Positions 17,029-50,022 of a DNA stretch of 64,000 bases are shown here, in pieces. A program made the position numbers and the translations under genes. The stretch's first letter is position 1, and every line of letters begins with the position of its first letter. The stretch is from Prevotellamassilia timonensis (lineage in GTDB: Bacteria; Bacteroidota; Bacteroidia; Bacteroidales; Bacteroidaceae): the NCBI RefSeq assembly GCF_900106785.1, contig NZ_LT629845.1:373028-437027 (forward strand). Direction: 5' to 3'. The notes beneath the pieces are model-generated. The model was not told the DNA's origin. It did no database searches and was given only the letters and a program-made list of their open reading frames with translations.

Positions 17029-17457
17029 TGCACTCTGCACTTTTGCTATTTAACTCATTGATATTCAATGCAAAAAGTAGTGTAGACAACTCTACACTTC
17101 GTCTGCACTTTATCTGCACTCATCTGCACTTTGTTTGCACGCTTCGTGAGTGTCGGTGCGAGTGCAGACAGCCATCGTATGCCACATTGTGCTTGCGGCT
17201 TTTGTGTAACGGGCGACAGACTTTTCAGCCGGAGAAACAGGCAAGCCGCTCCCCCGTAACTCTACAAACGTAGTGGCACGACTGTCTGCCACGCGACATA
17301 TTACCTGTGCAATCATATTTGCACTTTAAGATAGATGTGGCTTTCCATAGTGTAGACGGGTAGTGCAGATGCTGTGTAGACAAAGTGTAGGTAGTGTCTA
17401 CACACTTAAAATATTTGATAATCAATTAGTTAGACCGTAAAAGTGTAGAGTGTAGAC
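17029..17457. repeat. Inverted-repeat iteron element A (429 bp)
   Basis: Both ends carry the same module in opposite orientation. The left arm has CTGCACTCTGCACTTTT, then TAACTCATTGATATTCAA (17051-17068), then GTGTAGAC; the right arm is its imperfect mirror, with TTGATAATCAATTAGTTA at 17415-17432 and GTGTAGAGTGTAGAC at the end. Between and around these are about a dozen copies of GTGYAGAC in both orientations. The centre holds CCGGAGAAACAG (17229-17240) followed by a CTCCC that could pair with the GGAG. No open frame looks coding. Elements B and C have the same plan. It fills most of the gap between the esterase gene and the metalloprotease gene. Confidence 0.85.
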
Positions 17458-17516
17458 AAATTGCACGAAAAAACATGACGCGCGTGCGCGCGAGGCTAAC
17501 ACCCTTTTATTCAAAG

Positions 17517-18224
17517 ATGGACAACACAACAATTACTTACGAGGGCATACAATTAACGGTCAGCATAAAGGCTGTCAAGGCACTACGCATGGTGGTACGC
17601 CGTGATGGTAGTGTGTCGCTGGTTGTGCCCCTGTGGTGCGACAAAAACAAAGTCATGGACTTTTTGAACGACAAAAAAGATTGGCTGCGAAATGCCGTGG
17701 CAAAATCCAAACAACGTTTAGAAAAGCAAAAGGACTATTGGTTCCACGATTATGCAGAGGGCGAGTTGTTCACCTACTTAGGAAACCGTTACCCGCTTCA
17801 TTACCGCTTGACAGAAAAAGGGGTACCGCAAGCCGAACTAAAAGATGGTCAGCTTGTAGTGAGCTCGTCGCGCTGGCTCACACCGCAGCAAGCCATGTTG
17901 GTAATCAATGCGTGGTACGCAAAACAGTTCAAAACGCTTGTCAAGAGTTATCTTGCCTATTGGCTTCCACGCATGAATGAGGCGCCACTTTCGGTTGTGC
18001 GCTACAAGGTTATGAAGTCGCGTTGGGGCAGTATGATGCCAGCCTCACGTGTCGTGTGTTTTAATTTTAACCTTGTGTTTTACCCTGAGCGGTGTCTTGA
18101 AATGGTCGTAGTACACGAGTTGTGCCACCTCAAGGAGCCTTCGCACAACCGCCATTTTCATGAATTGATGGCCAGTTATTTGCCTGACTACAAGGCAAGA
18201 GCGCTTATATTAAAGGAAAACTAA
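17517..18224 (+). CDS. YgjP/SprT-like zinc metallopeptidase (DUF45)
   Basis: The start is taken at the ATG at 17517 (MDNTTITYEG); the longer frame from 17475 adds 14 basic residues lying next to iteron element A. The protein is 235 aa. The zinc site is HELCH at 200-204 with a third His at about 210 (HNRHFHELM), the M48/SprT-like arrangement. The N-terminal half (LRMVVRRDGSVSLVVPLWCDK...FLNDKKDWL) and the K/R-W-G-S segment (KSRWGSM) are hallmarks of the DUF45/YgjP family. It is probably cytoplasmic. Members are often near restriction systems, but here it stands alone. Confidence 0.85.
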   Translation: MDNTTITYEGIQLTVSIKAVKALRMVVRRDGSVSLVVPLWCDKNKVMDFLNDKKDWLRNAVAKSKQRLEKQKDYWFHDYAEGELFTYLGNRYPLHYRLTEKGVPQAELKDGQLVVSSSRWLTPQQAMLVINAWYAKQFKTLVKSYLAYWLPRMNEAPLSVVRYKVMKSRWGSMMPASRVVCFNFNLVFYPERCLEMVVVHELCHLKEPSHNRHFHELMASYLPDYKARALILKEN

Positions 18225-18435
18225 AGAAATATGCGTCTATATGTCTAAAAATCAGGACTATAATAAATCTCTTGTATAGCGTGTATGGCCCAAAATCTTG
18301 TATCTGTATTCGTTTCTGTTTGCCATTTTTGCCCTTACATGGGCAAATATCATTAAATATAATAAAACCGATGTAAAAGGATATTCGTATATTTGACCGC
18401 AAATCACTTGTATTATTCAACAAAATAAGAATGCT

Positions 18436-20427
18436 ATGAAACGAATATTACGATTTTTGGCGGCCGTGGTGTTATTAAGCATCATGGGTACGGTGCAAAC
18501 ATGGGCAGAATTTACTTTGTCGTCAGATGGTGCTGCACTCGCGGCAGAGAGCTATCCACGCCGTATGGTGATGGAGGAGGCCACTGCTACATGGTGTGGC
18601 TGGTGTCCTCAGGGCATTGTGGCCATAGATGGCCTTAAACGCGATTTTCCCGACAACTTTTTAGCCATTGCTATACACGGAAACGGGGATAAAATGGCGT
18701 ATGTTGACGAATATGGCTTGCAGGTTAATAGTTATCCTTCAGCCTTTCTCAATCGCCAAAGTACGTCAGTGAGCTATTCGTGGCTAAAACGACAAATAGA
18801 AAAGGCCGGACTGACAACTGATAAAATGGTGCGCATTGACAGCGTAACCTATGTTGAGGCCGATGAGGCGTATAAGGTGTATACAACCACACGTGTGGCC
18901 AATTTTTTGGAAAATGCACAACTGCGCTTGGTGTATGTGGTGACAGAGGATAGTGTGGGCCCTTATAAACAAACGAATAATTTTGCTGGTGAAAGTGAGG
19001 AGATGGGTGGATTTGAGAACTTGCCAACAAAGGTGGAAATGCTGTATTCGGACGTTGCGCGCTTCATTTATCTCAGTTGTGACGGGCTGGAGGGTAGTGT
19101 GCCATCAACGTTGGAGGCCTGCAAGGATTATGCTTATGTGGCAAACGTATCTGCAAACTTTAATTGTGACGACTATGGAAAGTTGCAACTCACGGTGATG
19201 CTCTACGATGCTGCCACAAATACCATCGTGAATGCGGATCGTATGCCATTGCCTAAGCGCACCGATTTGGATAAAACGCTGACTATTGATATGGGGCAAG
19301 AACCTGGTACGCTGAAGGAGAAGTTGGGCAATGATTTGTACAAGGTGCGTACTTTAGTTGTTAGTGGTAAGATAAATGGTGATGATTTGGCTACGCTCCG
19401 TGATATGGTGGGGTGTACTGACAATAAAACGCCCAAACTTGCAAATTTGGATTTAAGTGCAGCGCAGATAGTAAAAGGTGGTGTCTATATGGATGACAAA
19501 GAGCTGGATAAAGATAATCATTTGCCAGATTTGGCCTTTGAACGTGCTGTGTCTTTGCGTTCTATTACTGTTCCGAGTACATTGCGTTCTATTGGTTATG
19601 CGGCGTTTCAAGATACCTATTCGTTGCGTGAGGTGAACCTTAATGAAGGATTGGTGGAAATAGACACTTGGGCATTTGCTTCTTGGAACGTAGAAAGTTC
19701 TCTTGAAAAAATAAATATCCCGTCTACAGTGAGGTCGTTTCAAGGCACGACATTTGCTTCTTGTTATAAACTGAAAGATTTCACCTTCCACCCAGATAAT
19801 CCTTATTATACGTTTGATGGAATAGCTGTATACACAAAAGATTACGGACAAATAGTGCATATTATCCCTTCTTATGATGGTATGTTGCCTTTGCCTGATG
19901 AGTGCCGCACGGTGCAATGGAGCTCTCTTCGTTCGGGTAAGTTAAAAGGCTTTGTGGGTAAAAATGTAATAGAAATAGGTGGGCATGCTTTTGCTGACCT
20001 GTGGAGTGCAGATTATTTGGCTTTTGGTAGTAAATTAAAAAGAGTAGGAATTGGTCCGTTTAGCTATGCGCGACTAAATAGATTATATTTGGGGTGTCAT
20101 GACATACCTGATGGTGAGTATGTGGATTATGTTGATGGTGTATATAGTGATTATTGGGACGCTTATAAAAAAGTTACACTCTATGTGCCACGCGATGCGG
20201 TTGACAAATTTCAGAAGCATCGTGTGTGGGGCATGGCTAAAGAGGTGTTACCTATCGAAGATACGGAATTTGCCTATCTTGCCGATTCGGAACTTGATGC
20301 GGTGGACGAGGTCGAGACTTCGTCAACGGCTATGCCACATAGCATATATTCACCCACAGGTGTGAAGCTCAACAGGCCAATAAAAGGTTTGAATATTGTT
20401 GATGGTAAAAAGGTGATGGTGAAGTAA
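18436..20427 (+). CDS. Secreted Omp28/thioredoxin-like protein with BspA-type leucine-rich repeats
   Basis: A 663-aa protein with a signal peptide (RFLAAVVLLSIMGTVQTWA). Residues 40-125 form a thioredoxin-like domain with W-C54-G-W-C57, as in Omp28-related proteins, followed by a beta-rich region to about 290. Residues 300-560 contain BspA-like leucine-rich repeats (LRSITVPSTLRSIGYAAFQDTYSLREVNLNEG, LEKINIPSTVRSFQGTTF). The C-terminus SIYSPTGVKLNRPIKGLNIV...VMVK resembles the C-terminal sorting tails of Prevotella surface proteins exported by the type IX system. A redox domain joined to an adhesion-type repeat domain suggests a surface protein acting on disulfides of partners; this is inference. 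A TATATTTG box lies at 18388-18395. It is transcribed alone. Confidence 0.8.
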   Translation: MKRILRFLAAVVLLSIMGTVQTWAEFTLSSDGAALAAESYPRRMVMEEATATWCGWCPQGIVAIDGLKRDFPDNFLAIAIHGNGDKMAYVDEYGLQVNSYPSAFLNRQSTSVSYSWLKRQIEKAGLTTDKMVRIDSVTYVEADEAYKVYTTTRVANFLENAQLRLVYVVTEDSVGPYKQTNNFAGESEEMGGFENLPTKVEMLYSDVARFIYLSCDGLEGSVPSTLEACKDYAYVANVSANFNCDDYGKLQLTVMLYDAATNTIVNADRMPLPKRTDLDKTLTIDMGQEPGTLKEKLGNDLYKVRTLVVSGKINGDDLATLRDMVGCTDNKTPKLANLDLSAAQIVKGGVYMDDKELDKDNHLPDLAFERAVSLRSITVPSTLRSIGYAAFQDTYSLREVNLNEGLVEIDTWAFASWNVESSLEKINIPSTVRSFQGTTFASCYKLKDFTFHPDNPYYTFDGIAVYTKDYGQIVHIIPSYDGMLPLPDECRTVQWSSLRSGKLKGFVGKNVIEIGGHAFADLWSADYLAFGSKLKRVGIGPFSYARLNRLYLGCHDIPDGEYVDYVDGVYSDYWDAYKKVTLYVPRDAVDKFQKHRVWGMAKEVLPIEDTEFAYLADSELDAVDEVETSSTAMPHSIYSPTGVKLNRPIKGLNIVDGKKVMVK

Positions 20428-20444
20428 AGCGCGAACTCTATGTG

Positions 20445-20502
20445 CCAACCCTTAAATCCGCTATTTGTTTAGGAACGAATGGTGAGCGGATTTAAGGGTT
20501 GG
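20445..20502 (+). terminator. Hairpin terminator after the Omp28/LRR gene
   Basis: A perfect 18-bp stem (20445-20462 with 20485-20502) with a 22-nt loop, 18 bp past the stop codon. No T-tract follows directly. Confidence 0.75.
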
Positions 20503-20611
20503 CTGCGTGTGATGCCCACGTTTTAGGGGTAGAGTAGGCGGAGTGAAGCTCTTTTTACGAAACGTTGTGTACTTAATTGCGAGAACCTTAGCAGAGTTGT
20601 AACTTTTTTCG

Positions 20612-20619
20612 TATCTTTG
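20612..20619 (+). promoter_or_regulatory. Promoter -7 box TATCTTTG of the PurF-like gene
   Basis: TATCTTTG matches TAnnTTTG and lies 25 bp before the start codon. A good -33 element at 19-21 bp is not evident. Confidence 0.5.
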
Positions 20620-20644
20620 CCCACAAAACCAAAGAATTCGGCGA

Positions 20645-22531
20645 ATGGAACCTTTGAAACATGAGTGCGGTGTAGCCATGGTGCGATTACTCAAGCCGCT
20701 CTCTTATTATGAAAAGAAATATGGCACGTGGATGTACGGCTTGAACAAGCTGTATTTGCTGATGGAAAAGCAGCATAACCGCGGTCAAGAAGGTGCGGGG
20801 CTGGCATGCGTGAAAATGCAGGCGGCTCCAGGTGAGGAGTTTATGTTTCGGCAACGCGGCCTTGGCGGCGGAGCCATTCAAGAGATTTTTGGTAACGTAC
20901 ATAAGGAATTAGCTGATTTCACAAGCGAACAATTGCATGACGCGGACTTTGCGGCCCGTTATGTTCCGTTTGCTGGCGAAATATATATGGGCCACCTCCG
21001 GTATTCGACTACTGGCAAGAGTGGCCTTTCGTATGTCCACCCGTTTTTGCGCCGCAGCAACTGGCGCGCCAAGAATTTGTGCATCTGCGCCAACTTCAAC
21101 ATGACAAACGTGATGGAGATATTCAACGAGATAGCTGTGAAAGGCCAGCATCCGCGTATGGTGTCGGACACATATATCTTACTTGAACAACTCGGTCATC
21201 GCCTTGACCGCGAGAGCGAACGCTGCTTTGTTGAGGCTAAGAAGTTGGGGCTCGAAAATATGGACATCACGCGCTACATTGAGGACAATATTAACCTGTG
21301 CAACGTGCTGAAGAAGGCTGCACCCGTGTGGGACGGTGGTTATGTGCTGTGTGGCGTGACCGGTTCGGGCGAGATGTTCACCATGCGCGACCCTTGGGGC
21401 ATACGTCCTGCGTTTTATTACAAAGATGACGAATTGATGGTTGTAGCCTCAGAGCGTCCTGTCATACAAACGGCTTTGGACGTGGAGGCTGACATGGTGC
21501 ATGAGCTGCAGCCTGGTCAGGGCATCTTTATGAATAAATGCGGAGAAGTGCATACCGAACAGGTAATTGAGGCTAAAAAATATGCTGCTTGTTCGTTTGA
21601 GCGCGTGTACTTCAGCCGTGGCTCGGACAAGGATATCTATAATGAACGCAAGGAACTCGGCCGTACCTTGGTTGAGCCTATATTGAAGGCTGTCAACAAT
21701 GAGTTAGACAATACCGTGTTTGGCTATATTCCTAATACAGCTGAGGCCGCCTATTATGGCATGCTGCAGGGTTTTAACGAATATCTTAACCGACAGAAGG
21801 CAGAAGATATTGAAAAGCTCGGTGCAAATGTCACACACGAAAAGCTGCATGAAATATTGTCGCGCCGTATCCGCGCTGAAAAGGTGGCATGGAAGGATAT
21901 CAAGATGCGCACATTCATAGCTGAGGGCAATTCGCGCAACGATTTGGCTGCTCATGTTTATGACATCACTTATGGCTCGGTGCGTCCGGGCGTTGATAAT
22001 CTTGTGGTAATAGACGACAGTATTGTGCGTGGTACGACACTGCGTGAGAGCATCATACGCATCATGGACCGTTTGCACCCGCGTCGCATAGTAGTGGTAA
22101 GCTCGTCGCCGCAGGTGCGCTACCCCGATTATTATGGCATAGACATGGCGCACATGGAGGAGTTTATAGCCTTCCGCGCAGCCATAGAACTGCATAAGGA
22201 ACGTGGCATTGAAGCACGCTTGGACGTTATATATCAGCGCTGTAAGGCACAACTGAATTTGCCCAAAGAGCAGGTGGTGAACTATGTGCGCGATGTGTAC
22301 GAACCATTCACCTCGGAGGATATATCTGAGAAAATGGCCGAAATGCTCCGCCCCGAAGGTGTAACAACCGAAATACATATTGTGTATCAAAGTATTGAAG
22401 GGCTGCATAAGGCTTGTCCGCATTCACCAGGCGATTGGTATTTCTCTGGTCATTATCCGACGCCTGGAGGCAACAAGCGTGTGAATGAAGCCTTTGTGAA
22501 TTTCTACGAAAACTCTTATAAAACGAAATAG
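20645..22531 (+). CDS. PurF-family amidophosphoribosyltransferase-like protein, long form
   Basis: A 628-aa two-domain enzyme. The N-terminal Ntn-hydrolase glutaminase has Cys8 (MEPLKHECGVAMV), implying removal of a seven-residue propeptide, then QHNRGQEGAG and GHLRYSTTGKSGLSYVHPF. The C-terminal phosphoribosyltransferase carries the PRPP loop VVIDDSIVRGTTLRES at about 454-469. It is over 100 residues longer than typical PurF (about 500), with an extra region around residues 370-440 and a C-terminal extension. It lies directly upstream of carA and carB on the same strand, an arrangement I recall from other Bacteroidales. It may be a paralogue of the purine-pathway enzyme; a role tied to pyrimidine or carbamoyl-phosphate metabolism is inferred from context only. 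Confidence 0.8.
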   Translation: MEPLKHECGVAMVRLLKPLSYYEKKYGTWMYGLNKLYLLMEKQHNRGQEGAGLACVKMQAAPGEEFMFRQRGLGGGAIQEIFGNVHKELADFTSEQLHDADFAARYVPFAGEIYMGHLRYSTTGKSGLSYVHPFLRRSNWRAKNLCICANFNMTNVMEIFNEIAVKGQHPRMVSDTYILLEQLGHRLDRESERCFVEAKKLGLENMDITRYIEDNINLCNVLKKAAPVWDGGYVLCGVTGSGEMFTMRDPWGIRPAFYYKDDELMVVASERPVIQTALDVEADMVHELQPGQGIFMNKCGEVHTEQVIEAKKYAACSFERVYFSRGSDKDIYNERKELGRTLVEPILKAVNNELDNTVFGYIPNTAEAAYYGMLQGFNEYLNRQKAEDIEKLGANVTHEKLHEILSRRIRAEKVAWKDIKMRTFIAEGNSRNDLAAHVYDITYGSVRPGVDNLVVIDDSIVRGTTLRESIIRIMDRLHPRRIVVVSSSPQVRYPDYYGIDMAHMEEFIAFRAAIELHKERGIEARLDVIYQRCKAQLNLPKEQVVNYVRDVYEPFTSEDISEKMAEMLRPEGVTTEIHIVYQSIEGLHKACPHSPGDWYFSGHYPTPGGNKRVNEAFVNFYENSYKTK

Positions 22532-22615
22532 TACAGATGTTTGCCGGTAACGCAGTGCTGATTATGCCGGTAATCTATGCATACTCTACTTATAAATCTA
22601 CATCAACTCAATAAT

Positions 22616-23701
22616 ATGCGTAACGTAACACTTGTTCTTGACGACGGAACCAAATTTCATGGTAAGTCGTTTGGTTATGAAGCTCCTGTAGCAGGCGAAG
22701 TGGTTTTCAACACAGCCATGATGGGTTATCCCGAAAGTTTGACAGACCCTTCGTATGCAGGACAGCTCATGACTCTTACATATCCGCTTGTGGGCAATTA
22801 TGGTGTGCCACCTTTCACAATCGGTGATGATAAATTGGCCACTTACATGGAGAGTGACCGCATTTATGCTTCGGCTATTATCGTGAGCGATTATAGCGAG
22901 CAGTACAGTCATTGGAATGCTGTGGAAAGTTTGGGGGACTGGCTGAAACGCGAAAAGGTGCCAGGCATTACGGGCATCGACACGCGCGAACTTACCAAAG
23001 TGTTGCGTGAACATGGTGTGATGATGGGTAAGATATTGTTTGATGATGAGCCCAACAACGTTCCTACGGCAGAGTATGAGGGGGTTAATTATGTGGCTAA
23101 AGTGTCATGCAAGGAAATCATTCGTTACAACGAAGGCGAGAACCGCAAGAAAGTGGTGCTCGTTGACTGTGGCGTGAAGAATAACATCATTCGTTGCTTG
23201 ATAAAGCGCGGGGTAGAGGTTATTCGTGTGCCTTGGAACTACGATTTCAATGACATGGAATTTGATGGCCTGTTCCTGGCAAATGGTCCTGGCGACCCGG
23301 ACACTTGTGTGGAGGCAGTCGAGAATATTCGCAAGTTCTTGAACAATCCGGTTGTACGTCCTTGCATGGGTATTTGTATGGGTAATCAGTTGCTGTCGAA
23401 GGCCGCAGGTGCCAGCATCTACAAGTTGAAGTATGGACACCGCAGTCACAACCAGCCAGTGCGTATGGTTGGCACAAACCGTTGCTTCGTTACATCGCAA
23501 AACCACGGCTATGCAGTAGACAACCGTACACTGCCTGCTGAATGGGAACCCTACTTTGTCAATATGAATGATGGCTCGAACGAGGGTGTGCGCCACAAGA
23601 CCAATCCTTGGTTCTCGGCTCAGTTCCACCCAGAGGCTTGTTCCGGTCCTGTTGATACGGAATTCCTTTTTGACGAGTTTGTAAAGTTGCTGAATAAATA
23701 A
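22616..23701 (+). CDS. carA: Carbamoyl-phosphate synthase small (glutaminase) subunit
   Basis: The start is the ATG at 22616 (MRNVTLVLDDGTKFHGKSFG); the in-frame ATG at 22577 adds 13 unrelated residues. The 361-aa protein has the CarA-specific N-terminal domain (GEVVFNTAMMGYPESLTDPSYAGQ) and a class I glutamine amidotransferase domain with the nucleophile Cys at about 254 in PCMGICMGNQ and the His-Glu pair in FHPEAC. It supplies ammonia to CarB for carbamoyl phosphate, the precursor of pyrimidines and arginine. carB follows after 97 bp on the same strand and the pair is probably one operon with the PurF-like gene. Confidence 0.96.
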   Translation: MRNVTLVLDDGTKFHGKSFGYEAPVAGEVVFNTAMMGYPESLTDPSYAGQLMTLTYPLVGNYGVPPFTIGDDKLATYMESDRIYASAIIVSDYSEQYSHWNAVESLGDWLKREKVPGITGIDTRELTKVLREHGVMMGKILFDDEPNNVPTAEYEGVNYVAKVSCKEIIRYNEGENRKKVVLVDCGVKNNIIRCLIKRGVEVIRVPWNYDFNDMEFDGLFLANGPGDPDTCVEAVENIRKFLNNPVVRPCMGICMGNQLLSKAAGASIYKLKYGHRSHNQPVRMVGTNRCFVTSQNHGYAVDNRTLPAEWEPYFVNMNDGSNEGVRHKTNPWFSAQFHPEACSGPVDTEFLFDEFVKLLNK

Positions 23702-23798
23702 TATATCCAAAGGGTGAAATAGTGCTGGGGCTGTAACCTGCTACATTCATGGTAGTGTGGTAGCCTCAGAGTATGCTCACCATCGAAATATCCAAGCT

Positions 23799-26700
23799 AT
23801 GACTACAATAAAGAAAGTTCTCCTTCTCGGTTCGGGCGCACTTAAAATTGGTGAGGCTGGCGAGTTTGACTATTCAGGTTCGCAGGCCCTCAAGGCTCTG
23901 AAAGAGGAGGGTATCGAAACAATACTTATCAATCCGAACATCGCCACGGTGCAAACTTCGGAGGGCGTGGCAGACCGTATCTACTTTTTGCCGGTAACAC
24001 CTTACTTTGTTGAGCGCGTAATCGAAAAGGAACGTCCCGAAGGCATCATGTTGGCATTTGGCGGACAAACCGCTCTTAACTGCGGTGTAAAACTCTTTGA
24101 AAACGGTGTGCTCGAAAAGTACAATCTCAAGGTGCTTGGCACACCGGTACAGGCCATCATGGATACGGAGGACCGTGAACTGTTTGTTGAGAAGTTGAAC
24201 GAAATCAACGTTAAGACAATCAAGAGCGAGGCTTGCGAAAATGTAGAGCAGGCTCGCAAGGCCGCTGCCGAATTGGGCTATCCTGTCATTCTGCGTGCCG
24301 CCTACGCTTTGGGCGGACTTGGATCGGGCTTCTGCGACAATGAGGAAGAACTCGACAAATTGGCTGAAAAGGCTTTCTCTTTCTCACCACAGGTGCTTGT
24401 AGAGAAGAGCTTGAAGGGTTGGAAAGAAGTGGAATATGAGGTTGTGCGCGACCGCTTTGACAACTGTATTACAGTTTGTAATATGGAGAACTTCGACCCG
24501 TTAGGCATTCATACGGGTGAGAGTATTGTGATTGCGCCTTCGCAGACGCTGACAAACTCTGAATATCATAAGCTGCGCGAACTCTCTATCCGCATTGTAC
24601 GCCATGTGGGCATTGTGGGTGAGTGTAACGTGCAATACGCTTTCGACCCCAACAGCGAGGATTATCGCGTAATCGAGGTTAATGCCCGTTTGTCGCGCTC
24701 TTCGGCTTTGGCATCAAAGGCTACTGGTTACCCCTTGGCTTTTGTGGCTGCTAAATTGGGCTTGGGCTACGGCTTGTTCGACTTGAAGAACTCTGTAACC
24801 AAAACAACTTCGGCTTTCTTTGAGCCGGCATTGGACTATGTGGTATGTAAGATACCGCGTTGGGACTTGGGCAAATTCCATGGCGTAGACCGCGAACTTG
24901 GTTCGTCAATGAAGTCTGTTGGTGAGGTTATGGCCATCGGCCGCACCTTTGAGGAGGTTATTCAGAAGGGCTTGCGCATGATTGGCCAGGGCATGCATGG
25001 CTTTGTTGACAACAAGGAACTCAAGATTGACAATGTGGACGAGGCTTTGAAAGAGCCTACCGACAAGCGTATCTTTGTTATTGAAAAGGCATTCAATGCA
25101 GGTTACACCATCGATCAAATTCATGAATTGACAAAGATTGACCGTTGGTTCTTGCAGAAGCTTTATAAAATACATGAGACGGATAGGGAACTGCATGCTT
25201 GCACCTCAATCAATGTGCTCGACAACGAATTGTTGCGTAAGGCAAAGGTGCAGGGCTTTACCGATTTCCAGATAGCTCGTGCCGTAGGCATGGAGAAGGA
25301 GATGGACATCGAAAAGGCTATTCTTGCGGTACGTGCACGTCGTAAGCAGGCCGGCATTCTGCCCGTTGTAAAGCAGATTGATACTTTGGCTGCCGAATAT
25401 CCCGCTCAGACCAATTACTTGTATCTGACATATAGTGGCATTGCTCACGACATTCGATTTGAAAATGACAAGCGCTCGGTTGTTGTGCTCGGTTCGGGTG
25501 CATATCGCATTGGTTCGTCTGTAGAGTTTGACTGGTGTGGTGTGCAGGCACTCAATACTATCCGCAGGGAGGGCTATCGCTCAATCATGATCAACTACAA
25601 CCCCGAGACTGTGTCGACGGACTATGACATGTGCGACCGACTCTACTTTGATGAGCTGACATTTGAGCGTGTAATGGATATTCTCGACTTAGAGTGTCCT
25701 TATGGCGTGATTGTGAGCACGGGAGGTCAGATTCCGAACAACTTGGCCATGCGCCTCGATGCTGAAAATATCAACTTGCTTGGCACACAAGCCAAATATA
25801 TTGATAATGCAGAGGACCGTGAGAAATTCTCTGAAATGTTGAATCGCATCGGTGTAGACCAGCCTGAGTGGAGCGCGTTGACTTCGATGGACGATATCCA
25901 GCACTTTATTGAGCGTGTTGGTTTCCCCGTATTGGTGCGTCCGTCGTATGTGCTCTCGGGTGCAGCCATGAACGTGTGCTCAAATCAGGAGGAACTCGAG
26001 CGCTTCTTGAAGTTGGCTGCCAATGTGTCGAAAAAGCACCCTGTGGTTGTGAGCCGCTTCATGCAGCACGCCAAGGAAGTAGAAATGGATGCTGTAGCCA
26101 AAGATGGCGAAATCATTGCATACGCCATATCTGAGCATATCGAATTTGCAGGTGTGCACTCTGGTGATGCTACAATTCAGTTCCCGCCGCAGAAACTTTA
26201 TGTTGAAACGGCACGTCGCATCAAGAAGATTTCAAAGCAAATTGCCAAGGAACTCCATATTTCTGGTCCATTCAACATTCAGTATCTGGCCCGCGAAAAC
26301 GATATCAAGGTTATTGAGTGTAACTTGCGTGCATCGCGTTCGTTCCCGTTCGTGAGCAAGGTGCTTAAAATCAACCTTATTGAGCTGGCTACACGCATTA
26401 TGCTCGGCTTGCCGGTTGAAAAGCCTGCAAAGAGTTTGTTCGACCTCGATTATGTAGGTGTCAAGGCATCGCAGTTCTCATTCAACCGCTTGCAGAAGGC
26501 CGACCCCGTGTTGGGTGTCGATATGGCTTCGACAGGCGAAGTAGGTTGTTTGGGCGAAGATTCGCGTTCGGCATTGCTCAAGGCCATGTTGTCAGTAGGC
26601 CAGCGTGTGCCCGAAAAGAATATTCTGCTTTCAACAGGTGATGGCAAGCAAAAGGCTGAAATGTTGGCTGCTTGTGCTATGCTGCGCGACCATGGTTATA

Positions 26701-27017: not shown

Positions 27018-27043
27018 TGATGTTTTAATGCAATGATACACTT

Positions 27044-27094
27044 CGGGTACATGATTCAGAGAGAATAATCAGTCTCTTTGGAACCATGTACCCG
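27044..27094 (+). terminator. Stem-loop after carB
   Basis: A perfect 10-bp stem CGGGTACATG/CATGTACCCG (27044-27053 with 27085-27094) encloses a second short hairpin (AGAGA/TCTCT). There is no T-tract, so it may be a processing or Rho-type 3' end rather than a classical terminator. Confidence 0.5.
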
Positions 27095-27160
27095 ATGTGC
27101 CTTTAAGGGGAGGTGTCTCTGAGATAGCTTGAAGAAACCTACTTACAAATTATAGCAACT

Positions 27161-35153: not shown

Positions 35154-35227
35154 GTTAGAAATGCTGTTTTTTAGTTCAAGTATACATACAAAAAAAGACT
35201 GAAGTTTGTCAACCTCAGTCTCTTTTG

Positions 35228-35300
35228 TACACTCTCAGGGGTTCGAACCCTGGACCCACTGATTAAGAGTCAGTTGCTCTACCAACTGAGCTAAGAGTGC
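35228..35300 (-). tRNA. tRNA-Lys (anticodon CTT), copy 1
   Basis: A 73-nt cloverleaf on the minus strand: acceptor GCACTCT/AGAGTGT with discriminator A, D-arm TAGCTCAGTTGGTAGAGCA, anticodon arm ACTGA-CTCTTAA-TCAGT with anticodon CTT, variable GGGTC, T-arm CAGGGTTCGAACCCTG. The terminal CCA is not encoded. Identical to the other two copies. Confidence 0.95.
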
Positions 35301-35320
35301 AAAATAATTTGCTTGATAAG

Positions 35321-35393
35321 TACACTCTCAGGGGTTCGAACCCTGGACCCACTGATTAAGAGTCAGTTGCTCTACCAACTGAGCTAAGAGTGC
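35321..35393 (-). tRNA. tRNA-Lys (anticodon CTT), copy 2
   Basis: Same 73-nt sequence and fold as copy 1, 20 bp away. The short spacer and shared strand suggest one tRNA transcript. Confidence 0.95.
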
Positions 35394-35438
35394 ATTTTGC
35401 AAAAACCGGAAATGATTGGCGTATGAAAAAATCCTTTG

Positions 35439-35511
35439 TACACTCTCAGGGGTTCGAACCCTGGACCCACTGATTAAGAGTCAGTTGCTCTACCAACTGA
35501 GCTAAGAGTGC
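35439..35511 (-). tRNA. tRNA-Lys (anticodon CTT), copy 3
   Basis: Same 73-nt sequence as the other copies, 45 bp further upstream in transcription order, so it is the first of the three to be made. Confidence 0.95.
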
Positions 35512-35697
35512 AAGTCTCATTTCCGTTTTGCGAGTGCAAAGGTACGGCTTTCTGGTATAACGACCAAATTTTTCAAGTGTTTTTTTTGCTCGTTAGCCAT
35601 TTCGGACGCGAATGAATGGTGTGCAGGCATTAGAGTGTTGTGTAGAATAAATGACATTTTTGCGTATGTTCCCTCCATAGTTGTTTATGTAAAAAGT

Positions 35698-36136
35698 GTC
35701 TGCACTCTGCACTAATCGTATTAAATTTTCTGATAATCATGGTTTTACGGCGTGTAGATAAAGTCAAAATCCGTCTACACTGCTATCTACACTTGTCTGC
35801 ACTAAAGGCTTGCTTGCATTTTCACATCTTTGTTTGCCTAAGGCTGCAAAATTGTTTGTACGGAACGGAAAATAAATATAGGGAGGGCGAAAAAACTGTA
35901 ACTCCGACAGAATTATCGCTCTCCCTATACAGGATTATCTTGTTGTCATGACACATTTTGATGAGTGCAGGTGCCCACATATTGGCATGTGCCCACGGCG
36001 TGATTGTGCCGGTGCAGACAAGTGCAAGCAAGTGCAGACACGTGCAGAGAGGAGTGTAGACGGATTTTGACTTTGTCTACACGCTGTAATGGTCTGAATA
36101 TCAGTGTTTTAAGTGTGATTAGTGTAGAGTGCAGAC
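35698..36136. repeat. Inverted-repeat iteron element B (439 bp)
   Basis: Terminal arms of about 105 bp are inverted copies of each other. The best-kept part is 31 bp long (35751-35781 against 36053-36083) with one mismatch. Each arm holds GTCTGCACT and GTCTACACT iterons and an AT-rich core with TGATAATCA (35731-35739) or its mirror TGAATATCA (36095-36103). The centre, read on the minus strand, has TCGGAGTTACAG followed by CGCCCTCCCT, the same hairpin core as in elements A and C. It occupies most of the gap between the tRNA-Lys cluster and the DUF1460 gene; no coding frame is convincing. Confidence 0.87.
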
Positions 36137-36194
36137 AAAATGCCAAATAAAAAATGATGGGGATTCTGCTTGGCACTGACTACACTTGTCATGT

Positions 36195-39671: not shown

Positions 39672-39680
39672 GTCAAAGTG

Positions 39681-42194: not shown

Positions 42195-42212
42195 TGACAA
42201 TGTGTCTGTTTG

Positions 42213-42701: not shown

Positions 42702-43038
42702 AGTCGTAGGCTTCAATATTATTGGCATTTGCCATCATCAAATAGTCATAGGCCGCATCGGCATGCGAATCGCTGTTGCTGGACTGTGCTGAAATATGTG
42801 TATCCACATCAGACATTTGGCTCTGTTGTATTTGCGAGAACAGTACAAGCAGCGCTGCCACGCAAGCAGCGCCAAGCCATGGTATCCAGCGCACAATGAA
42901 CATGTTGTGCGCCTTTTGCACACATTGTGCCGATGCTGCGATGCGCTGCATCATCAACTCCGGAAAACTTGCCAAATAGTTTTCGGGTACGACAAATGGA
43001 TTGTGCTTTTTTGAAATATTTGTATCGAATGTGCTCAT
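42691..43038 (-). CDS. Small membrane protein, candidate anti-sigma factor
   Basis: A 115-aa protein with a cytoplasmic N-terminus of about 48 residues (NPFVVPENYLASFPELMMQRI), one transmembrane helix (WIPWLGAACVAALLVLFSQI) and a short acidic periplasmic tail. It is encoded 71 bp after the ECF sigma factor. The NPF-PENYF-type opening is common in small Bacteroidetes proteins in this position. It lacks a recognisable zinc anti-sigma motif, so the anti-sigma role is inferred from topology and neighbours. Confidence 0.6.
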   Translation of the reverse strand: MSTFDTNISKKHNPFVVPENYLASFPELMMQRIAASAQCVQKAHNMFIVRWIPWLGAACVAALLVLFSQIQQSQMSDVDTHISAQSSNSDSHADAAYDYLMMANANNIEAYDYDY

Positions 43039-43109
43039 TGCGTTACAGTTATTTGGTCATATCACGATAATATGTCTTTATCTCTATGACACATAAAACG
43101 CATAAAAGT

Positions 43110-43646
43110 TTAATCGTGTGCGTTAAAATACTCCTCAATTTTCTTCACTGCCAAATGATACGATGCTTTGAGCGCTCCCACGCTGGTTTCAAGCATAGTG
43201 CTCATATCCTCGTATTTCATTTCGTCGAAGTATTTAAGGTTAAACACAATGCGTTGTTTTTCAGGCAGGGTAGCTATAGCTTGTTGCAGCATCAATTCAG
43301 TTTCGTCGCCATCAAAATAAGGGTCACTTTCAAGCGACCGCATGTTGGCATCGTCCTCAGTGTCCAAACTGTCTGTAGTATGTTGCCTTTGCAGGAGAGA
43401 CAAAGCCTCGTTCATGGCGATGCGGTATAGCCATGTGGATATTTGGCAGTCACCCCTAAAGGAGTCCAATGCCTGCCACGCTTTCATATAGGTGTTTTGC
43501 AACACGTCGTCGGCATCATCATGGTATTGTACAATACGTCGGATTTGCGTGTACAATTTTGGAGTCGTGTCACGCACCATGGCCGCAAAGGCCTGAGTCC
43601 GTGTGTCGGGGTTGCGCAGGGTGTCAATGCTATATGCCACTATCAT
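43110..43646 (-). CDS. ECF-type RNA polymerase sigma factor
   Basis: A 178-aa sigma-70 family protein. Region 2 is visible in HDDADDVLQNTYMKAWQALDSF and CQISTWLYRIAMNEAL; region 4 in LPEKQRIVFNLKYFDEMKYEDMSTMLETSVGALKASYHLAVKKI. There is no region 1 or 3, as usual for extracytoplasmic-function sigmas. It is followed by a small membrane protein and a secreted helical protein, the standard envelope-sensing layout, and then by a helicase gene. The regulon is unknown. Confidence 0.92.
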   Translation of the reverse strand: MIVAYSIDTLRNPDTRTQAFAAMVRDTTPKLYTQIRRIVQYHDDADDVLQNTYMKAWQALDSFRGDCQISTWLYRIAMNEALSLLQRQHTTDSLDTEDDANMRSLESDPYFDGDETELMLQQAIATLPEKQRIVFNLKYFDEMKYEDMSTMLETSVGALKASYHLAVKKIEEYFNAHD

Positions 43647-43665
43647 GTTGCAGCGCCATGCCGTT

Positions 43666-44013
43666 TTAGCCCGCTACGCTGATGCGTCGCGTGGTTTTGT
43701 TGATGTTGAGTAAGTATACACCCTTTCCCAGCGAGAAACGTACCGTTTTGTCGTTGCTGTCAATGTGCGCTACATATTTCAGTTTTCCCACAATGTCGTA
43801 CACCTTCAGGGTGGCTCCTTGACAGTTGACAGCGTGCACTTGAATGCTGGTGCCGCTTACCGAAACGTCCACATGGTTCGCTTCGTCGTTAATACCTTGC
43901 ATCTCGGTTGATTCAGCAAGTGGCGCCGAAGGGTCGACGGGCGATGCCATGGCCGCAGCCGGGGCTGAGAATACAAGTAAACTTATGATAGTAAGTAGTA
44001 TATGTTGTTTCAT
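43666..44013 (-). CDS. Small secreted protein with a sorting-domain-like C-terminus
   Basis: A 115-aa protein with a signal peptide (LTIISLLVFSAPAAAMA). After a low-complexity acidic stretch the last 70 residues read VDVSVSGTSIQVHAVNCQGATLKVYDIVGKLKYV...RFSLGKGVYLLNINKTTRRI, the pattern of a type IX secretion C-terminal sorting domain, but with nothing sizeable to carry. It starts the operon: 19 bp separate its stop from the sigma factor start. It could be the remnant of a larger surface protein or a small secreted signal. Confidence 0.6.
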   Translation of the reverse strand: MKQHILLTIISLLVFSAPAAAMASPVDPSAPLAESTEMQGINDEANHVDVSVSGTSIQVHAVNCQGATLKVYDIVGKLKYVAHIDSNDKTVRFSLGKGVYLLNINKTTRRISVAG

Positions 44014-44135
44014 ATGTTGTTGAAATTATGATGGCGTGGCAGTATCAATTTGCAAGATTACACTTTACGCCTAATATAAATATGCTTACAAAAGTATGAC
44101 TTATCCTCCAATGGTGCAAATTATTAGTGGCTTTT

Positions 44136-44166
44136 TTTGTCGCCCTTGTTTTTATTCGTACTTTTG
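44136..44166 (+). promoter_or_regulatory. thi operon promoter, TTTG-N19-TACTTTTG
   Basis: TTTG at 44136-44139 and TACTTTTG at 44159-44166 are separated by 19 bp, the exact Bacteroidetes consensus layout. The transcript would begin about 44172, just before the TPP riboswitch. Confidence 0.8.
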
Positions 44167-44180
44167 TGCGCAATTCAAAA

Positions 44181-44265
44181 GAGCTAAGGGGTGTACGCCT
44201 ATTTGGGCGTGCTGAGATTATACCCTCGGAACCTGCACCAGGTCATGCTGGCGAAGGAAAAGCTC
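44181..44265 (+). ncRNA. TPP (THI-box) riboswitch
   Basis: The conserved THI-box elements are present in order: AGGGGTG, a short P3 stem, GCTGAGATTATACCC, GGAACCTG, then CAGGTCATGCTGGCGAAGG. P1 is formed by GAGCT (44181) and AGCTC (44261-44265). The motif binds thiamine pyrophosphate and lowers expression of the downstream thiE and thiC when thiamine is plentiful. The thiE start codon is 26 nt after the closing stem, so control of translation initiation is likely. The thiE frame runs through the riboswitch by chance. Confidence 0.95.
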
Positions 44266-44291
44266 ATAAAATAATCGTATATTATATTTAT

Positions 44292-44912
44292 ATGGTTCCA
44301 GTACAATTTATTACCCACACCACAGCCACCATAGGCTATGAAGACTCAGCTATGTTGGCTCTGCGGGGTGGTTGCAAATGGATTCAGCTGCGCATGAAAA
44401 ATGCGTCGGACGATGAGGTTGAGCCCATTGCAGTGCGTTTGCTCGAGCAGTGTCGCAAAAATCAAGCCACATTCATATTGGACGACAGAGTGGAACTCTG
44501 TAAAAAGATAAAGGCTGATGGTGTGCATCTGGGCAAACATGATATGCCCGTTGATGAGGCGCGCGAGGTGTTGGGACACGATTTCATTATTGGGGGCACT
44601 GCCAACACCATAGACGATATCAGGCAACTCAAACGCCTTAGTGCTGATTATGTTGGTTGCGGCCCGTTCAGATTTACGACGACTAAAGAGAAATTGTCAC
44701 CGGTGATAGGTCTGGAAGGTTACAAACAAATTATGCAGCAGGTTGAGCACGAAGCATTGCGCATACCAATATGTGCCATAGGCGGAATTGAACTCGATGA
44801 TGTGATGCCTATTCTCGAAACGGGGGTACATGGCATAGCTGTGAGTGGTGCCATACTGCGTGCTGACGACCCTGTGCAAATGATGCAGAGTTTTTTGAAC
44901 GCTGACAAATAA
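44292..44912 (+). CDS. thiE: Thiamine-phosphate synthase
   Basis: The start is the ATG at 44292, after the riboswitch; an upstream in-frame ATG at 44127 would place the riboswitch inside the gene. The 206-aa TIM barrel joins the pyrimidine and thiazole halves of thiamine. Family motifs visible are GGCKWIQLRMKN, ILDDRVELCKKIKADGVHLGKHD, DYVGCGPFRFTTTK and AIGGIELDDVMPILETGVHGIAVSGAI. thiC follows on the same strand, separated by a MITE-like repeat. Other thi genes (thiS, G, H, D) are not in the window. Confidence 0.94.
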   Translation: MVPVQFITHTTATIGYEDSAMLALRGGCKWIQLRMKNASDDEVEPIAVRLLEQCRKNQATFILDDRVELCKKIKADGVHLGKHDMPVDEAREVLGHDFIIGGTANTIDDIRQLKRLSADYVGCGPFRFTTTKEKLSPVIGLEGYKQIMQQVEHEALRIPICAIGGIELDDVMPILETGVHGIAVSGAILRADDPVQMMQSFLNADK

Positions 44913-44913
44913 A

Positions 44914-45001
44914 TAGGTGTTCAAAATACTCTTTATCTGGAACGTGCTTTCAAAGTGAAAATGACACCTGCTGATTGTATAAAATAATTTTGAACACCTA
45001 C
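44914..45001. repeat. Short copy of the GTAGGTGTTCAAAAT MITE-like repeat inside the thi operon
   Basis: An 88-bp copy with inverted ends TAGGTGTTCAAAAT and ATTTTGAACACCTA. It keeps the terminal parts (ATGACACCTGCTGATTGTAT) of the longer copies at 52608-52788 and 59155-59369 but lacks their middle. It lies between thiE and thiC and would form a 14-bp stem in the mRNA. Confidence 0.85.
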
Positions 45002-45012
45002 TAAATAAATAG

Positions 45013-46713
<1,701 letters not shown>

Positions 46714-46782
46714 TGAGGTGCAGGTGATGTGCGTGCATGGTTGTTGCACGCAATGCAACATGGCCTGTTGATATAGAAAAGA

Positions 46783-46832
46783 CGTGGCCCCAAGGCAGAT
46801 TTCTATTTCTGGAATCTTGCTTTGAGGCCACG
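46783..46832. terminator. Bidirectional terminator between thiC and the PAP2 phosphatase
   Basis: CGTGGCC...GGCCACG close a long imperfect hairpin (46783-46832) followed by CCCTTTTT on the plus strand. The two flanking genes are convergent. Confidence 0.75.
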
Positions 46833-46866
46833 CCCTTTTTGCATCAGTAGGCGTATTGCAGTCTGT

Positions 46867-47598
46867 TTACTTCACCTTGCCGGCTTTCTTCAACTTTGCA
46901 AATTCTTTTTTGGCTTTGGCTAATTGTGTGCAAAAGCCTTCGTCTGCATGCAGGCGTGCCACGAGTCCGCTGGCCACCACTCGGCCTGCATCAACATCGC
47001 TTTGATAGTGAACACCGCAAATAACACGACTTTGGCCAAACTCAAATCCACGTTTCAGTATCTCGTTTTGGCGGTCAATGTTAATTTCGGCAAGCACCAA
47101 GGCTGTAGCCCAACCAATGGCGGTATGGCCTGATGGGTAAGAGCCATTTGTGGCGAGCCACTTTTCAGCACCGGGGGTTAGTGATTGTTCGCCAAATAAC
47201 ATGAATGGGCGCATGCGCATATAGTAGTTCTTTGCGCTTCGTGTAGACAAATCGCCTGCGTCCTCCTGCATACGGCTTATGAGTGTATATATTTCGGGCG
47301 TTTCTTCTTTAGATATTTTGATTCCGAAAGCATCAGAAAAGGCGTTTGACAATCCGACACCGCCCAAATTGGCGTCTTCGGCAGCCTGTTTGCCGCGTGG
47401 AGTGATACGTTGCATCTTTCCCCACTTGTATTGCGCTTCGTCGTAATTGAACTGTGCACTACCGGGTTGGGGTGGGGGTGGAAGCAGCTCAAGGCTATTG
47501 GCCACTTGGTCTGGTTTCAGGAAAGTGTTTTGCGCTTGGCAGAAAGTAGACATTGCAAGCATCGCGCATGAGGCAATGAATAGGACTCTTTTTCTCAT
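46867..47598 (-). CDS. Periplasmic class A-type acid phosphatase (PAP2 family)
   Basis: A 243-aa protein with a signal peptide (MRKRVLFIASCAMLAMSTFCQA). The three PAP2 motifs are K-x6-RP-like KNYYMRMRPF, PSGH in GSYPSGHTAIGW, and SR-x5-H-x3-D in SRVICGVHYQSDVDAGR, giving the catalytic His pair. The Gly-Ser-hydrophobic N-terminal region and length match bacterial non-specific acid phosphatases (PhoN type). It would hydrolyse phosphomonoesters in the periplasm. It is transcribed alone. Confidence 0.88.
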   Translation of the reverse strand: MRKRVLFIASCAMLAMSTFCQAQNTFLKPDQVANSLELLPPPPQPGSAQFNYDEAQYKWGKMQRITPRGKQAAEDANLGGVGLSNAFSDAFGIKISKEETPEIYTLISRMQEDAGDLSTRSAKNYYMRMRPFMLFGEQSLTPGAEKWLATNGSYPSGHTAIGWATALVLAEINIDRQNEILKRGFEFGQSRVICGVHYQSDVDAGRVVASGLVARLHADEGFCTQLAKAKKEFAKLKKAGKVK

Positions 47599-47748
47599 AG
47601 AAATGTGCTTTTGTAGTTGGGCAGATATTCAAAACAATGACGTGCAAGTTGTAATGATGCCATCATGGTTATGAGCATCTGCTGATATATTGTTCTTTTG
47701 CAAAGTTACACTATGTTTTGTAAAGAGAAAAGCGCGTGGCCAACAAAA

Positions 47749-47781
47749 AAGGCCGCATACCTATTAGAGGTACGCAGCCTT
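47749..47781 (-). terminator. Terminator of the rpmB-rpmG-DUF4295 operon
   Basis: An imperfect 14-bp stem around CTAAT is followed on the minus strand by CCTTTTTTG. It lies 67 bp past the DUF4295 stop. Confidence 0.85.
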
Positions 47782-47848
47782 GTGTATGATTTACGATAGC
47801 CTTTGTGTAGGCATCGCAAGAATCAATTAATTATTGCCGAACTTCAGA

Positions 47849-48007
47849 TTAGTTCTTGAAGAAGTCCTTAACAGCTTCGTTAGGAACCATCTGTTCGTCA
47901 AAGATATAAGCACCAGTCTTGGGGCTCTTTACCATCTTGATTACCTTGGTGTAAGAGCGTCCATCGGTCTTACCTTCTTGAAGTGTAGCGACTGTTTTCT
48001 TTGCCAT
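47849..48007 (-). CDS. DUF4295 small protein linked to ribosomal genes
   Basis: A 52-aa basic protein starting MAKKTVATLQEGKTDGRSYT and ending PNEAVKDFFKN. It is the DUF4295 family, found in Bacteroidetes directly downstream of the L28 and L33 genes and probably ribosome-associated. The same order holds here: the gene starts 13 bp after the L33 stop. It is shorter than 60 aa and easily missed. Confidence 0.92.
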   Translation of the reverse strand: MAKKTVATLQEGKTDGRSYTKVIKMVKSPKTGAYIFDEQMVPNEAVKDFFKN

Positions 48008-48020
48008 GGTTTACTGTGGT

Positions 48021-48212
48021 TTATTTGATTTCTTTGTGGATGGTCATTCTGCGAAGAATGGGGTTATACTTCTTCAACTCCAAACGTTCGGGAGTGTTTT
48101 TGCGGTTCTTCGTTGTGATGTAACGTGATGTTCCAGGAAGGCCGCTTTCTTTCATTTCAGTGCATTCGAGGATAACCTGAACGCGGTTGCCTTTAGCTTT
48201 CTTTCCAGCCAT
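48021..48212 (-). CDS. rpmG: 50S ribosomal protein L33
   Basis: A 63-aa protein with the L33 pattern [42 protein letters not shown]. It has no zinc-binding cysteine pairs (one Cys only), so it is a zinc-independent form. It is the middle gene of the rpmB-rpmG-DUF4295 operon, 14 bp from rpmB. Confidence 0.96.
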
Positions 48213-48226
48213 TTTATTCTACAATT

Positions 48227-48487
48227 TTAGCCGATTACTTTAATATTTTTCCAATCGCAATATCCCTTGGCTACGGCGCTGTTGAGAGCGGCGTCCAAGC
48301 CGACCTTGTTGATGAGGCGCAGACCAGCAGCGCTGATGCGGAGTGTGATCCAGCAGTCCTGTTCAACGTAGTAGAACTTCTTAGTGAACAAGTTTACATC
48401 AAACGAGCGCTTTGTGCGACGCTTCGAGTGAGAAACGTTGTTGCCAATCATGGCTTTCTTTCCTGTAATTTGACAAATCTTAGACAT
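48227..48487 (-). CDS. rpmB: 50S ribosomal protein L28
   Basis: An 86-aa protein with the L28 signature [33 protein letters not shown] and [20 protein letters not shown]. It is the first gene of a three-gene ribosomal operon with a consensus promoter about 160 bp upstream, leaving a leader of roughly 150 nt. Confidence 0.97.
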
Positions 48488-48644
48488 TGCTTTCGCTTTG
48501 TTTCTTTGTTGTTTGATTAGAAGTGTAGCGGTTTTCGGTATTTATTCTCCTATGACTGGGTTTCAGAATTTTGTTGTTGCGTAATCTTGGGGTGGTTTTT
48601 CTTACATTGACCAGTCAACGGACATACTATCCGCTTACGGGGTG

Positions 48645-48675
48645 CAAAGGTAGTAACTTTTTATTTAATGACAAA
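48645..48675 (-). promoter_or_regulatory. rpmB operon promoter, TTTG-N19-TACCTTTG
   Basis: On the minus strand TTTG (48675-48672) and TACCTTTG (48652-48645) are 19 bp apart, the exact consensus. It explains most of the 48488-48819 gap; I see no gene in the rest of that gap. Confidence 0.8.
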
Positions 48676-48819
48676 GCAAACGACTTATTTTTCAGTCATT
48701 TTGTGCCTAAGACAGACTTTGAATCGAATAAAAAGTCAATAACCATTGCCTTCATCTTTGTAGTTGAGACAAGTCCTGCCTTTTGGTCATCGTCAAGATT
48801 ACGAAACTTTACATTAGAG

Positions 48820-49518
48820 CTAATGGCAAACGTTCTTGTTATCTCGATAGGGGCATAACAGAAACAAGGTGGAATAGGTCGCTGCGGTTGGAGACGTTTT
48901 TATCACAGCCGCAATGGCATTGCCACAGGTGCTTGCACCGCCCGCTGTAGCTTGCACCCAACCGGCCACCATGCAGCGCAGCCAGCGCCCAAACACCATG
49001 CGCCACAGCGCATCGGTGCTCACCCGTTCGGCCAGTGGACCCACGCGGTCGGTGCCGTCCCACTGAGGCAGGGCCTGCAAATAAGCGCTGAAGGGGTGAT
49101 ACCGCGGCATGTAGGCCGACTCCACAATGCGGTCCACATCATTGTTCCACACCATGCAGCCCCGTTTGTGCAAGTCAATCACCATCGTGTTGCGCACCAG
49201 TTTGCTCACGGGCACAAACCCTTTGTCCGCCTGGTCGCGCCGTTGTGCTTCGGGTGTGCGGTCAAGCACATTATAGCGAATGTCGTACAGTTCGTCCATA
49301 AGACTGATGGCTTGTTCGGTCAGACCGCAGTTCGTGGTGCTGCCAGTTGTTTGCGGTGCGCAGTCAGTGTCGTTGCGCATGCGTTTTTTCCGCTGGGGTG
49401 TTACAGTGTTTTTACTTTGTGGTTCCAGGCTATGCGCGATAACATCTATCAGTTTGTCCACGCCACGTTTCACAATGGCATCAGCATAGCGCAGCATTCT
49501 GTTAAGCATTCGTTTCAT
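48820..49518 (-). pseudogene. Truncated VirE-type primase/helicase gene
   Basis: A frame of about 232 codons from the ATG at 49518 (MKRMLNRMLRYADAIVKRG). Residues from about 60 on resemble the start of the VirE/DUF3987-type P-loop domain of Bacteroidetes mobile elements: LMDELYDIRYNVLDRTPEAQ, YHPFSAYLQALPQWDGTDRVGPLAE, FGRWLRCMVAGWV and GNAIAAVI. Just where the Walker A loop (GKST) should follow, homology stops and the frame runs on for about 20 unrelated residues to a stop. The ATPase half is therefore missing and the protein cannot be functional as a helicase. Iteron element C lies 155 bp upstream of its start. Confidence 0.72.
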
Positions 49519-49672
49519 GGTAGTCAATACAATTTGGTTTGATATAAAAGTAAAGTGCTGCAAAGGTAACACTAAGGCATTGCACCCAACAAAAAAAGTG
49601 TACAATTTGTACACAAATATTTGCCCCATCGCCGTCATCCCTCATGTAAAAGAGAGTGCGTGCTTTTACTGC

Positions 49673-50022
49673 CATCTTACACTTTTTGTACGTAACAAGT
49701 TGATATACAGACGTTTCAAGAGTGTAAGATGATTCCAAAGTATCTTACACACCCTTGCACACATCTTACACACCTTACCCCGCAGCCTCGCAGTCAACAT
49801 GGACGTATGCAGTAGATAATACGGCACAAGGACGCAGAAAAATCAGTCGGAGCAACAGACTTTTCTGCTCCCCTATGCCGTGATACTGTTCTCCCGTGCT
49901 TGTGCCGTGTGGCAGCATATGGGTTGTGTAGGTTGTGTGTAGGTGGAATTTGTAGTATCTTACACTGAGTAAAGTGTTGACAATCAATGAGTTGTAACGT
50001 ATTAGTGTAAGATGTAAGATAC
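49673..50022. repeat. Inverted-repeat iteron element C (350 bp), upstream of the VirE remnant
   Basis: It has the same plan as elements A and B with a different iteron. CATCTTACACT and its mirror GTGTAAGATG recur six to seven times in both orientations. The AT-rich core is TAACAAGTTGATATACAG at 49693-49710 on the left and TTGACAATCAATGAGTT at 49977-49993 on the right, whose complement is AACTCATTGATTGTCAA. The centre has TCGGAGCAACAGAC (49847-49860) followed by a CTCCCC that can pair with GGAG. No credible coding frame. Confidence 0.85.

Follow-up and report, generated by a model that had tools for sequence, protein, structure and literature searches.

The stretch of DNA analyzed here (the window) comprises 64,000 nucleotides of Prevotellamassilia timonensis (contig NZ_LT629845.1, positions 373,028 to 437,027) and belongs to a 3.48-Mb genome in 17 contigs. 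It contains three elements, A, B and C. Each is made of two inverted arms around a central block; the arms carry iterons in both orientations and one AT-rich near-palindrome apiece. A and B belong to one type (the A type, iteron GTGYAGAC), B having been assigned to it by copy search, and C represents a second (the C type). A broken gene for a VapE-DUF3874 helicase lies beside C. The elements most likely function as origin modules of self-loading initiators of the kind found in staphylococcal pathogenicity islands (SaPIs). The features are listed below, with the strand given where there is one.

17029–17492: element A (A type), with two inverted iteron arms, a centre and a right outer CG-alternating tail; the left limit is the value from the earlier note on this DNA
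17058–17067: left AT-rich near-palindrome of A, TTGATATTCA
17206–17260: imperfect central stem-loop of A, with CGGAGAAACAG at 17230–17240
17415–17424: right AT-rich near-palindrome of A, TTGATAATCA
17474–17492: alternating CG tract of A, spanning the listed start (17475) of a YgjP-like open reading frame
35690–36140: element B (A type)
35730 and 36095: AT-rich near-palindromes of B, one per arm, CTGATAATCA and TGAATATCA, respectively
35877–35929: central stem-loop of B; the block on the plus strand reads CTGTAACTCCG (35896–35906)
48865–49518, minus strand: broken vapE-DUF3874 gene (genome position C17:421892–422545), residues 1–218 of 455, 87% identical to the C-clade copy
49560–49568, minus strand: candidate promoter-like TACCTTTGC of the vapE remnant
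49598–49614: palindrome GTGTACAATTTGTACAC separating C from the vapE remnant, with near-identical ones at vapE loci of the A type and of a third type
49670–50054: element C (C type), iteron GTGTAAGAT; conservation on the right side extends to about GGTAAAAG (21 aligned copies)
49700 and 49977: AT-rich near-palindromes of C, one per arm, TTGATATACA and TTGACAATCA, respectively
49823–49880: central stem-loop region of C, with CGGAGCAACAG at 49848–49858

The iterons are strongly enriched in the window. GTGYAGAC occurs at 21 sites against 3.5 expected (maximum among 100 shuffles, 9), and GTGTAAGAT at 7 sites against 0.47 expected (largest shuffle count, 4). The three elements that the earlier note had described, with their inverted arms, two-way iterons and AT-rich core per arm, are real, lie where it placed them, and stand far above chance. 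At its settings the repeat finder reported an arm pair for B alone (107 nt, 80%); that the arms of A and C are symmetric is taken from reading the sequence together with the iteron positions. The lengths of 429, 439 and 350 bp given previously locate the elements correctly but stop short of their ends. The right side of A continues outward through AAATTGC...ACATGACGCGCGTGCGCGCGAGG to about 17492, and the CG-alternating tail is also present in copies from a related species. The real start of the YgjP-like reading frame beside A is probably further inside than the listed position. The central block was said to be common to the three elements, and it is present in all of them, but B carries it on the opposite strand. 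At an A-type end the outermost features are a GGGG box and an A+T stretch, weakly conserved among 43 ends compared. Further in come the iteron doublet, an AT palindrome (TTGATWATCAA), an iteron in inverted orientation, additional iterons and, last, the centre.

Both types form large families. The A-type terminal doublet AGTGYAGAGTGYAGAC occurs 96 times in the genome at up to one mismatch (reversed pattern, 0), and these sites group into 52 clusters, among which are 39 inverted pairs spaced 279–718 bp apart. The right end of the C type occurs 50 times at up to two mismatches (reversed control, 0). The blast searches for copies scored at most 40 of 103, 85 and 78 candidates and, in one search, 13 per genome, so their counts are minimum values. 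In the search with C, the best 40 of the 78 candidates, C included, match over nearly the full length, the other 39 at 84–92% identity. A search of 60 other genomes, 36 of them from the same genus, gave no C-type match at E 0.001.

A minus-strand reading frame lies to the left of many C copies, and the linked protein carries a VapE-like domain and DUF3874 in 16 of 16 cases. Altogether, vapE sequence adjoins a C element at 23 places in the genome (4 long copies and 19 shorter pieces), so the C type with its vapE sequence must have been copied about within this lineage. One internal deletion junction is common to 4 of 11 C loci compared with the locus L079. A second vapE clade, approximately 67–73% identical, stands beside A-type elements, and a third adjoins an element with a third iteron type. 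Iteron type matches vapE clade at all eight long loci of the genome (seven full-length; C16:560891 is cut short). The palindrome GTGTACAANTTGTACAC precedes vapE at loci of all three clades, and the loci therefore descend from one plan. This palindrome and the homologous vapE genes (67% identical) at A- and C-type loci confirm that A, B and C resemble one another beyond their octamers.

The clades differ most in DUF3874. The A and C clades are 81% identical in the ATPase part and 46% in DUF3874; the corresponding values are 86% and 69% for A and the third clade, and 81% and 53% for C and the third clade. The loci L152 and L153, which have one iteron doublet in common, are 99% and 97% identical in the two parts. 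Although the comparisons are few, this pattern is the outcome expected of a changed DNA specificity in DUF3874. In a predicted model, the helicase fold matches SaPI PriRep1 over 366 residues, including the C-terminal part up to residue 474, and residues 370–440 follow the order H-E-H-H-E-E and fold as a putative winged helix. Pfam detected no primase domain in the linked protein, and neither PADLOC (defence) nor NCBIfam gave a match. Twenty vapE neighbours scanned at four loci of this genome and five of relatives include ClpA, ClpS, UvrD, FtsK, LpxD and TerD, and there is no integrase among the 20.

Because iteron type and initiator clade are linked, the predicted fold is that of an initiator, the C-terminal part diverges more strongly where iterons differ, copy number is high, and the elements are symmetric, we read A, B and C as the origin modules on which self-loading initiators similar to VapE and SaPI Rep would start replication, and put the probability of this reading at roughly 60%. 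SaPI-type replication modules have iterons flanking an AT-rich segment, an arrangement also found in the elements. The previous proposal of iteron origins with diverged initiator specificity gains support from homology and from the link between iteron type and vapE clade. The recognizing protein was thought possibly to be encoded elsewhere; VapE-DUF3874 helicases are indeed linked to the same element types at other places in the genome, and the window itself has a broken copy next to C. That copies number in the dozens per family, and that each family has its matching helicase gene, suggests dispersed spare replication origins. DUF3874 would bind the iterons, and VapE hexamers formed at the two arms would open the AT-rich palindromes and travel away from each other, which would allow bidirectional replication to begin locally. 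The central stem-loop, in copies that have one, might serve for priming or control when the DNA is single-stranded. An autonomous unit would consist of iteron element, promoter and vapE, about 1.9 kb in the C type. From most copies vapE is wholly or partly missing; these would rely on an initiator supplied in trans and would spread as passengers of replication by some integration route. More tentatively, and with the odds somewhat against it, the elements may represent a transposable class made of an origin and a self-loading helicase alone, lacking transposase, integrase and nickase, that seeds the chromosome with orphan origins (about 50 for each type of initiator), with an iteron code for each host lineage and initiator clade, and several incompatible origin networks in one genome.

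Within the genus, 21 of 58 genomes (the present one counted) have a vapE relative at E 1e-10. We scanned 28 loci of relatives automatically for upstream repeats and read six of the more promising ones, of which five (L145, L146, L147, L152 and L153) have inverted iteron arrays upstream. An 8-mer is more repeated than in all 30 shuffles upstream of 29 of 71 loci and downstream of 12 of 76 (Fisher p 0.0009); 71 of the 80 named loci had sufficient upstream sequence for this test. At up to two mismatches, GTGAAGGTTGTGAAAGC has 87 sites in the related genome G033 and 93 in G062 (reversed controls, 3 and 4), with one vapE match in G033 and two in G062, the second of them distant. The inverted ends recur in all 13 copies fetched from G033, with a mismatch in two of them, and CG-alternating tracts lie beyond these ends. 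Such tracts directly outside the inverted ends (L251–L263; window 17474–17492) could in principle adopt Z-DNA. Bacteroides ndongoniae (L171, L174, L175, L177) and Phocaeicola massiliensis (L213, L220, L233, L237) each have at least four separate vapE-DUF3874-like genes.

The elements were also put forward as miniature mobile units, with copies absent from syntenic positions as a sign of movement. Across approximately 240 kb aligned between G033 and G062, each of the seven G033 elements is matched in G062, the matches at G062 C14:320679 and 335981 being judged by one half-site each. Two of the nine G062 elements among the matches listed have no G033 counterpart; neither site has clean edges, and gain and loss are indistinguishable. 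Borders differ from copy to copy, and the two absent sites are not clean when examined for target-site duplication. The many lineage-restricted copies and the two syntenic differences support mobility in part, but the analysis turned up neither a transposase nor a clean junction nor a target duplication. In the fetched loci the A- and C-type arms enclose no transposase, although the genome was not searched exhaustively.

In many copies the centre is a stem-loop with a variable stem and a loop near TTGCTCCGA. Covariation of stem pairs in 19 selected sequences is 0.377 against 0.195 in shuffles (0/500), with slid controls at or below 0.147. This set holds 15 sequences from A-type or third-type loci and four C copies hand-picked from 21, and the whole selection is biased toward pairing. 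The loop motif was hit in 18 of 26 A-type or third-type sources, chosen at lowest fold energy (no hit in A, L053, L054, L057, L058, L063, L064 and L070), and three further loci, L066, L067 (which coincides with L121) and L122, were later omitted. In a motif-blind test, 10 of 27 A-type rows (one locus entered twice), B among them, fold with z below −2 relative to shuffles, and the inner part of A shows no folding advantage over its shuffles. Because only these 10 rows are positive and A is not among them, the stem-loop is a feature of only part of the family. The idea that the centre is a structured RNA or terminator is weak. Rfam at gathering score found only tRNA and a riboswitch in the window and nothing for the elements; at lax thresholds, run on B and C, C gave two microRNA models under their cut-offs and B none. 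A terminator was rejected, as neighbouring genes are mostly tandem and convergent in only 2 of 24 A-type rows of this genome and 3 of 21 G033 rows (one own locus and two G033 loci counted twice).

Several observations weigh against the origin-module reading. The putative origin lies upstream of vapE, the reverse of SaPIs, where it is downstream of rep. Outside the genus the link between vapE and iterons is moderate, as the upstream and downstream 8-mer counts (29 of 71 against 12 of 76) show. The automatic scan of the 28 loci gave mixed results, and L142 (G032), the closest out-of-species relative by E-value among those read, has no clear symmetric array upstream. The third iteron type has few other matches, and these are partial. 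In four further pairs from other genomes, with iterons not systematically compared, the C-terminal value is lower every time (59 vs 68, 51 vs 83, 85 vs 97 and 60 vs 79), so faster C-terminal drift explains part of the divergence signal. The central stem-loop is not general to the elements. Finally, G033 and G062 mostly share the positions (7 of 9), their two differences are not clean insertions, and there is a strong preference for one region of the chromosome, all of which would suit a resident function no less than a mobile one.

Such a resident function, with the elements as sites that organize the chromosome or control replication, is an unlikely alternative. A domesticated VapE helicase would act on some 40–50 sites set at intervals along part of the chromosome, perhaps restarting or boosting replication in that part. 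It would account for the 43 G033 elements, which cluster on the chromosome (Rayleigh p ~4e-7 with the contig treated as a circle; mean 1.40 Mb) with many spaced 12–40 kb apart, for the location of 51 of 52 A-type clusters on contigs C14, C16 and C17 (66% of bases, p 1.3e-8), and for the syntenic elements common to the two species. It sits poorly with the C-type copies, which are spread evenly (33 of 50 on those same contigs), often accompany vapE debris and had no match in the 60 other genomes searched, and with the coexistence of two independent families in this genome. No reliable position was obtained for the ends of the replication arms; dnaA of G033 lies at 1.08 Mb, and its GC skew, derived from 29 stretches of 20 kb and noisy, switches sign near 1.7 Mb.

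Somewhat less probable still are ordinary miniature inverted-repeat transposable elements (MITEs), mobilized by a transposase encoded elsewhere, with vapE captured or a frequent neighbour. The elements are short, non-coding, intergenic, multi-copy and bounded by terminal inverted repeats, as MITEs are, and they have internal-deletion derivatives; the fetched loci also contain several further palindromic repeat families. However, none of these loci showed a transposase between the arms, and a MITE end with its transposase does not predict the eight-for-eight match of clade and iteron or the greatest DUF3874 divergence where iterons differ. We set the elements apart from MITEs, despite their size and ends, because they are linked to a replication initiator. 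Remains of SaPI-type phage satellites or plasmids, inserted through an integrase and since reduced to the origin, seem very improbable. The initiator fold and iteron origin do resemble those of SaPI-type initiators, but the scanned neighbours lack integrases, the C region (window 49500–50140) has no DNA match in phage or plasmid collections, and decay alone does not explain some 50 copies. The absence of an integrase at the vapE loci examined is also why we do not class the elements as SaPIs or phage-inducible chromosomal islands.

Compared with SaPI Rep/PriRep1, the system shares the helicase fold and iterons beside the initiator gene; it differs in having no Pfam primase domain and no integrase among scanned neighbours. 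Its element also sits upstream of the gene and has two mirror-image iteron-AT-iteron arms, and a single chromosome carries dozens of orphan copies. Cch2 of the staphylococcal cassette chromosome SCCmec is alike in that the helicase is proposed to load itself, its C-terminal domain binding adjacent AAGTG iterons, but it is a single module in a large cassette, and dispersed orphan origins are not mentioned in the available part of that source (PMC7581432). The BrickBuilt MITE of Porphyromonas gingivalis is likewise an intergenic, multi-copy Bacteroidales element with inverted ends, but has a 23-nt tandem minisatellite, 19 copies in one strain and, in the portion available, no mention of an initiator link (PMC4596501). 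PINSR of Prevotella intermedia is also a lineage-specific intergenic repeat, with 177 and 184 copies in two strains at mostly shared positions; it is 188 bp long, is reported to lack terminal inverted repeats, and is not linked to vapE in the accessible text (PMC4755523). Identity with PINSR was rejected, since the 39 A-type pairs have inverted ends 279–718 bp apart. No paper in the literature searched contains the word DUF3874, and among the papers listed for Bacteroidales on VapE, MITEs or iteron elements that are dispersed, none describes the present ones.

Other features lie near the elements. Three tandem tRNA-Lys(CTT) genes with identical scores adjoin B (window 35227–35511), and a thiamine pyrophosphate (TPP) riboswitch (Rfam RF00059, 61.4 bits) lies at 44177–44276. 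To the right of C is a large palindrome with 35-nt and 102-nt arms and ACATAAG/CTTATGT repeats (50170–50532), and similar repeats surround vapE copies in L121–L123. A further inverted-repeat family with ends near AAGTAGGTGTTCAAAATTATTTT is present at 52606–52790 and 59152–59372. In L079 (reverse strand), a 370-bp palindrome, GGTTAACCCATTCTGATATTATCGCTCACGG, stands on both sides of the intact vapE-C unit (3790–4170 and 6160–6525), with relatives in L121 (1270–1640) and L086. A dispersed GGGGGCGACGCGTCTCGCGTCGGG hairpin element with short CTAAACGCAAGCA repeats occurs in the right flanks of the C copies L031–L050 and in L054, L062 and L064; by eye, it joins 11 of 20 C copies at a recurrent point. 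One C-type element lies approximately 0.8 kb from dnaA of this genome (C2:11466–13135), and one IS110-type transposase was seen near one vapE copy.

A bacterial chromosome usually has one origin. If the elements are working origins, some Bacteroidales would have dozens of additional places at which one helicase could start replication. The elements would then also illustrate how mobile DNA can spread by replication alone. The paralogous systems within one genome, which differ in both iterons and DUF3874, would make the specificity code of DUF3874 directly testable.
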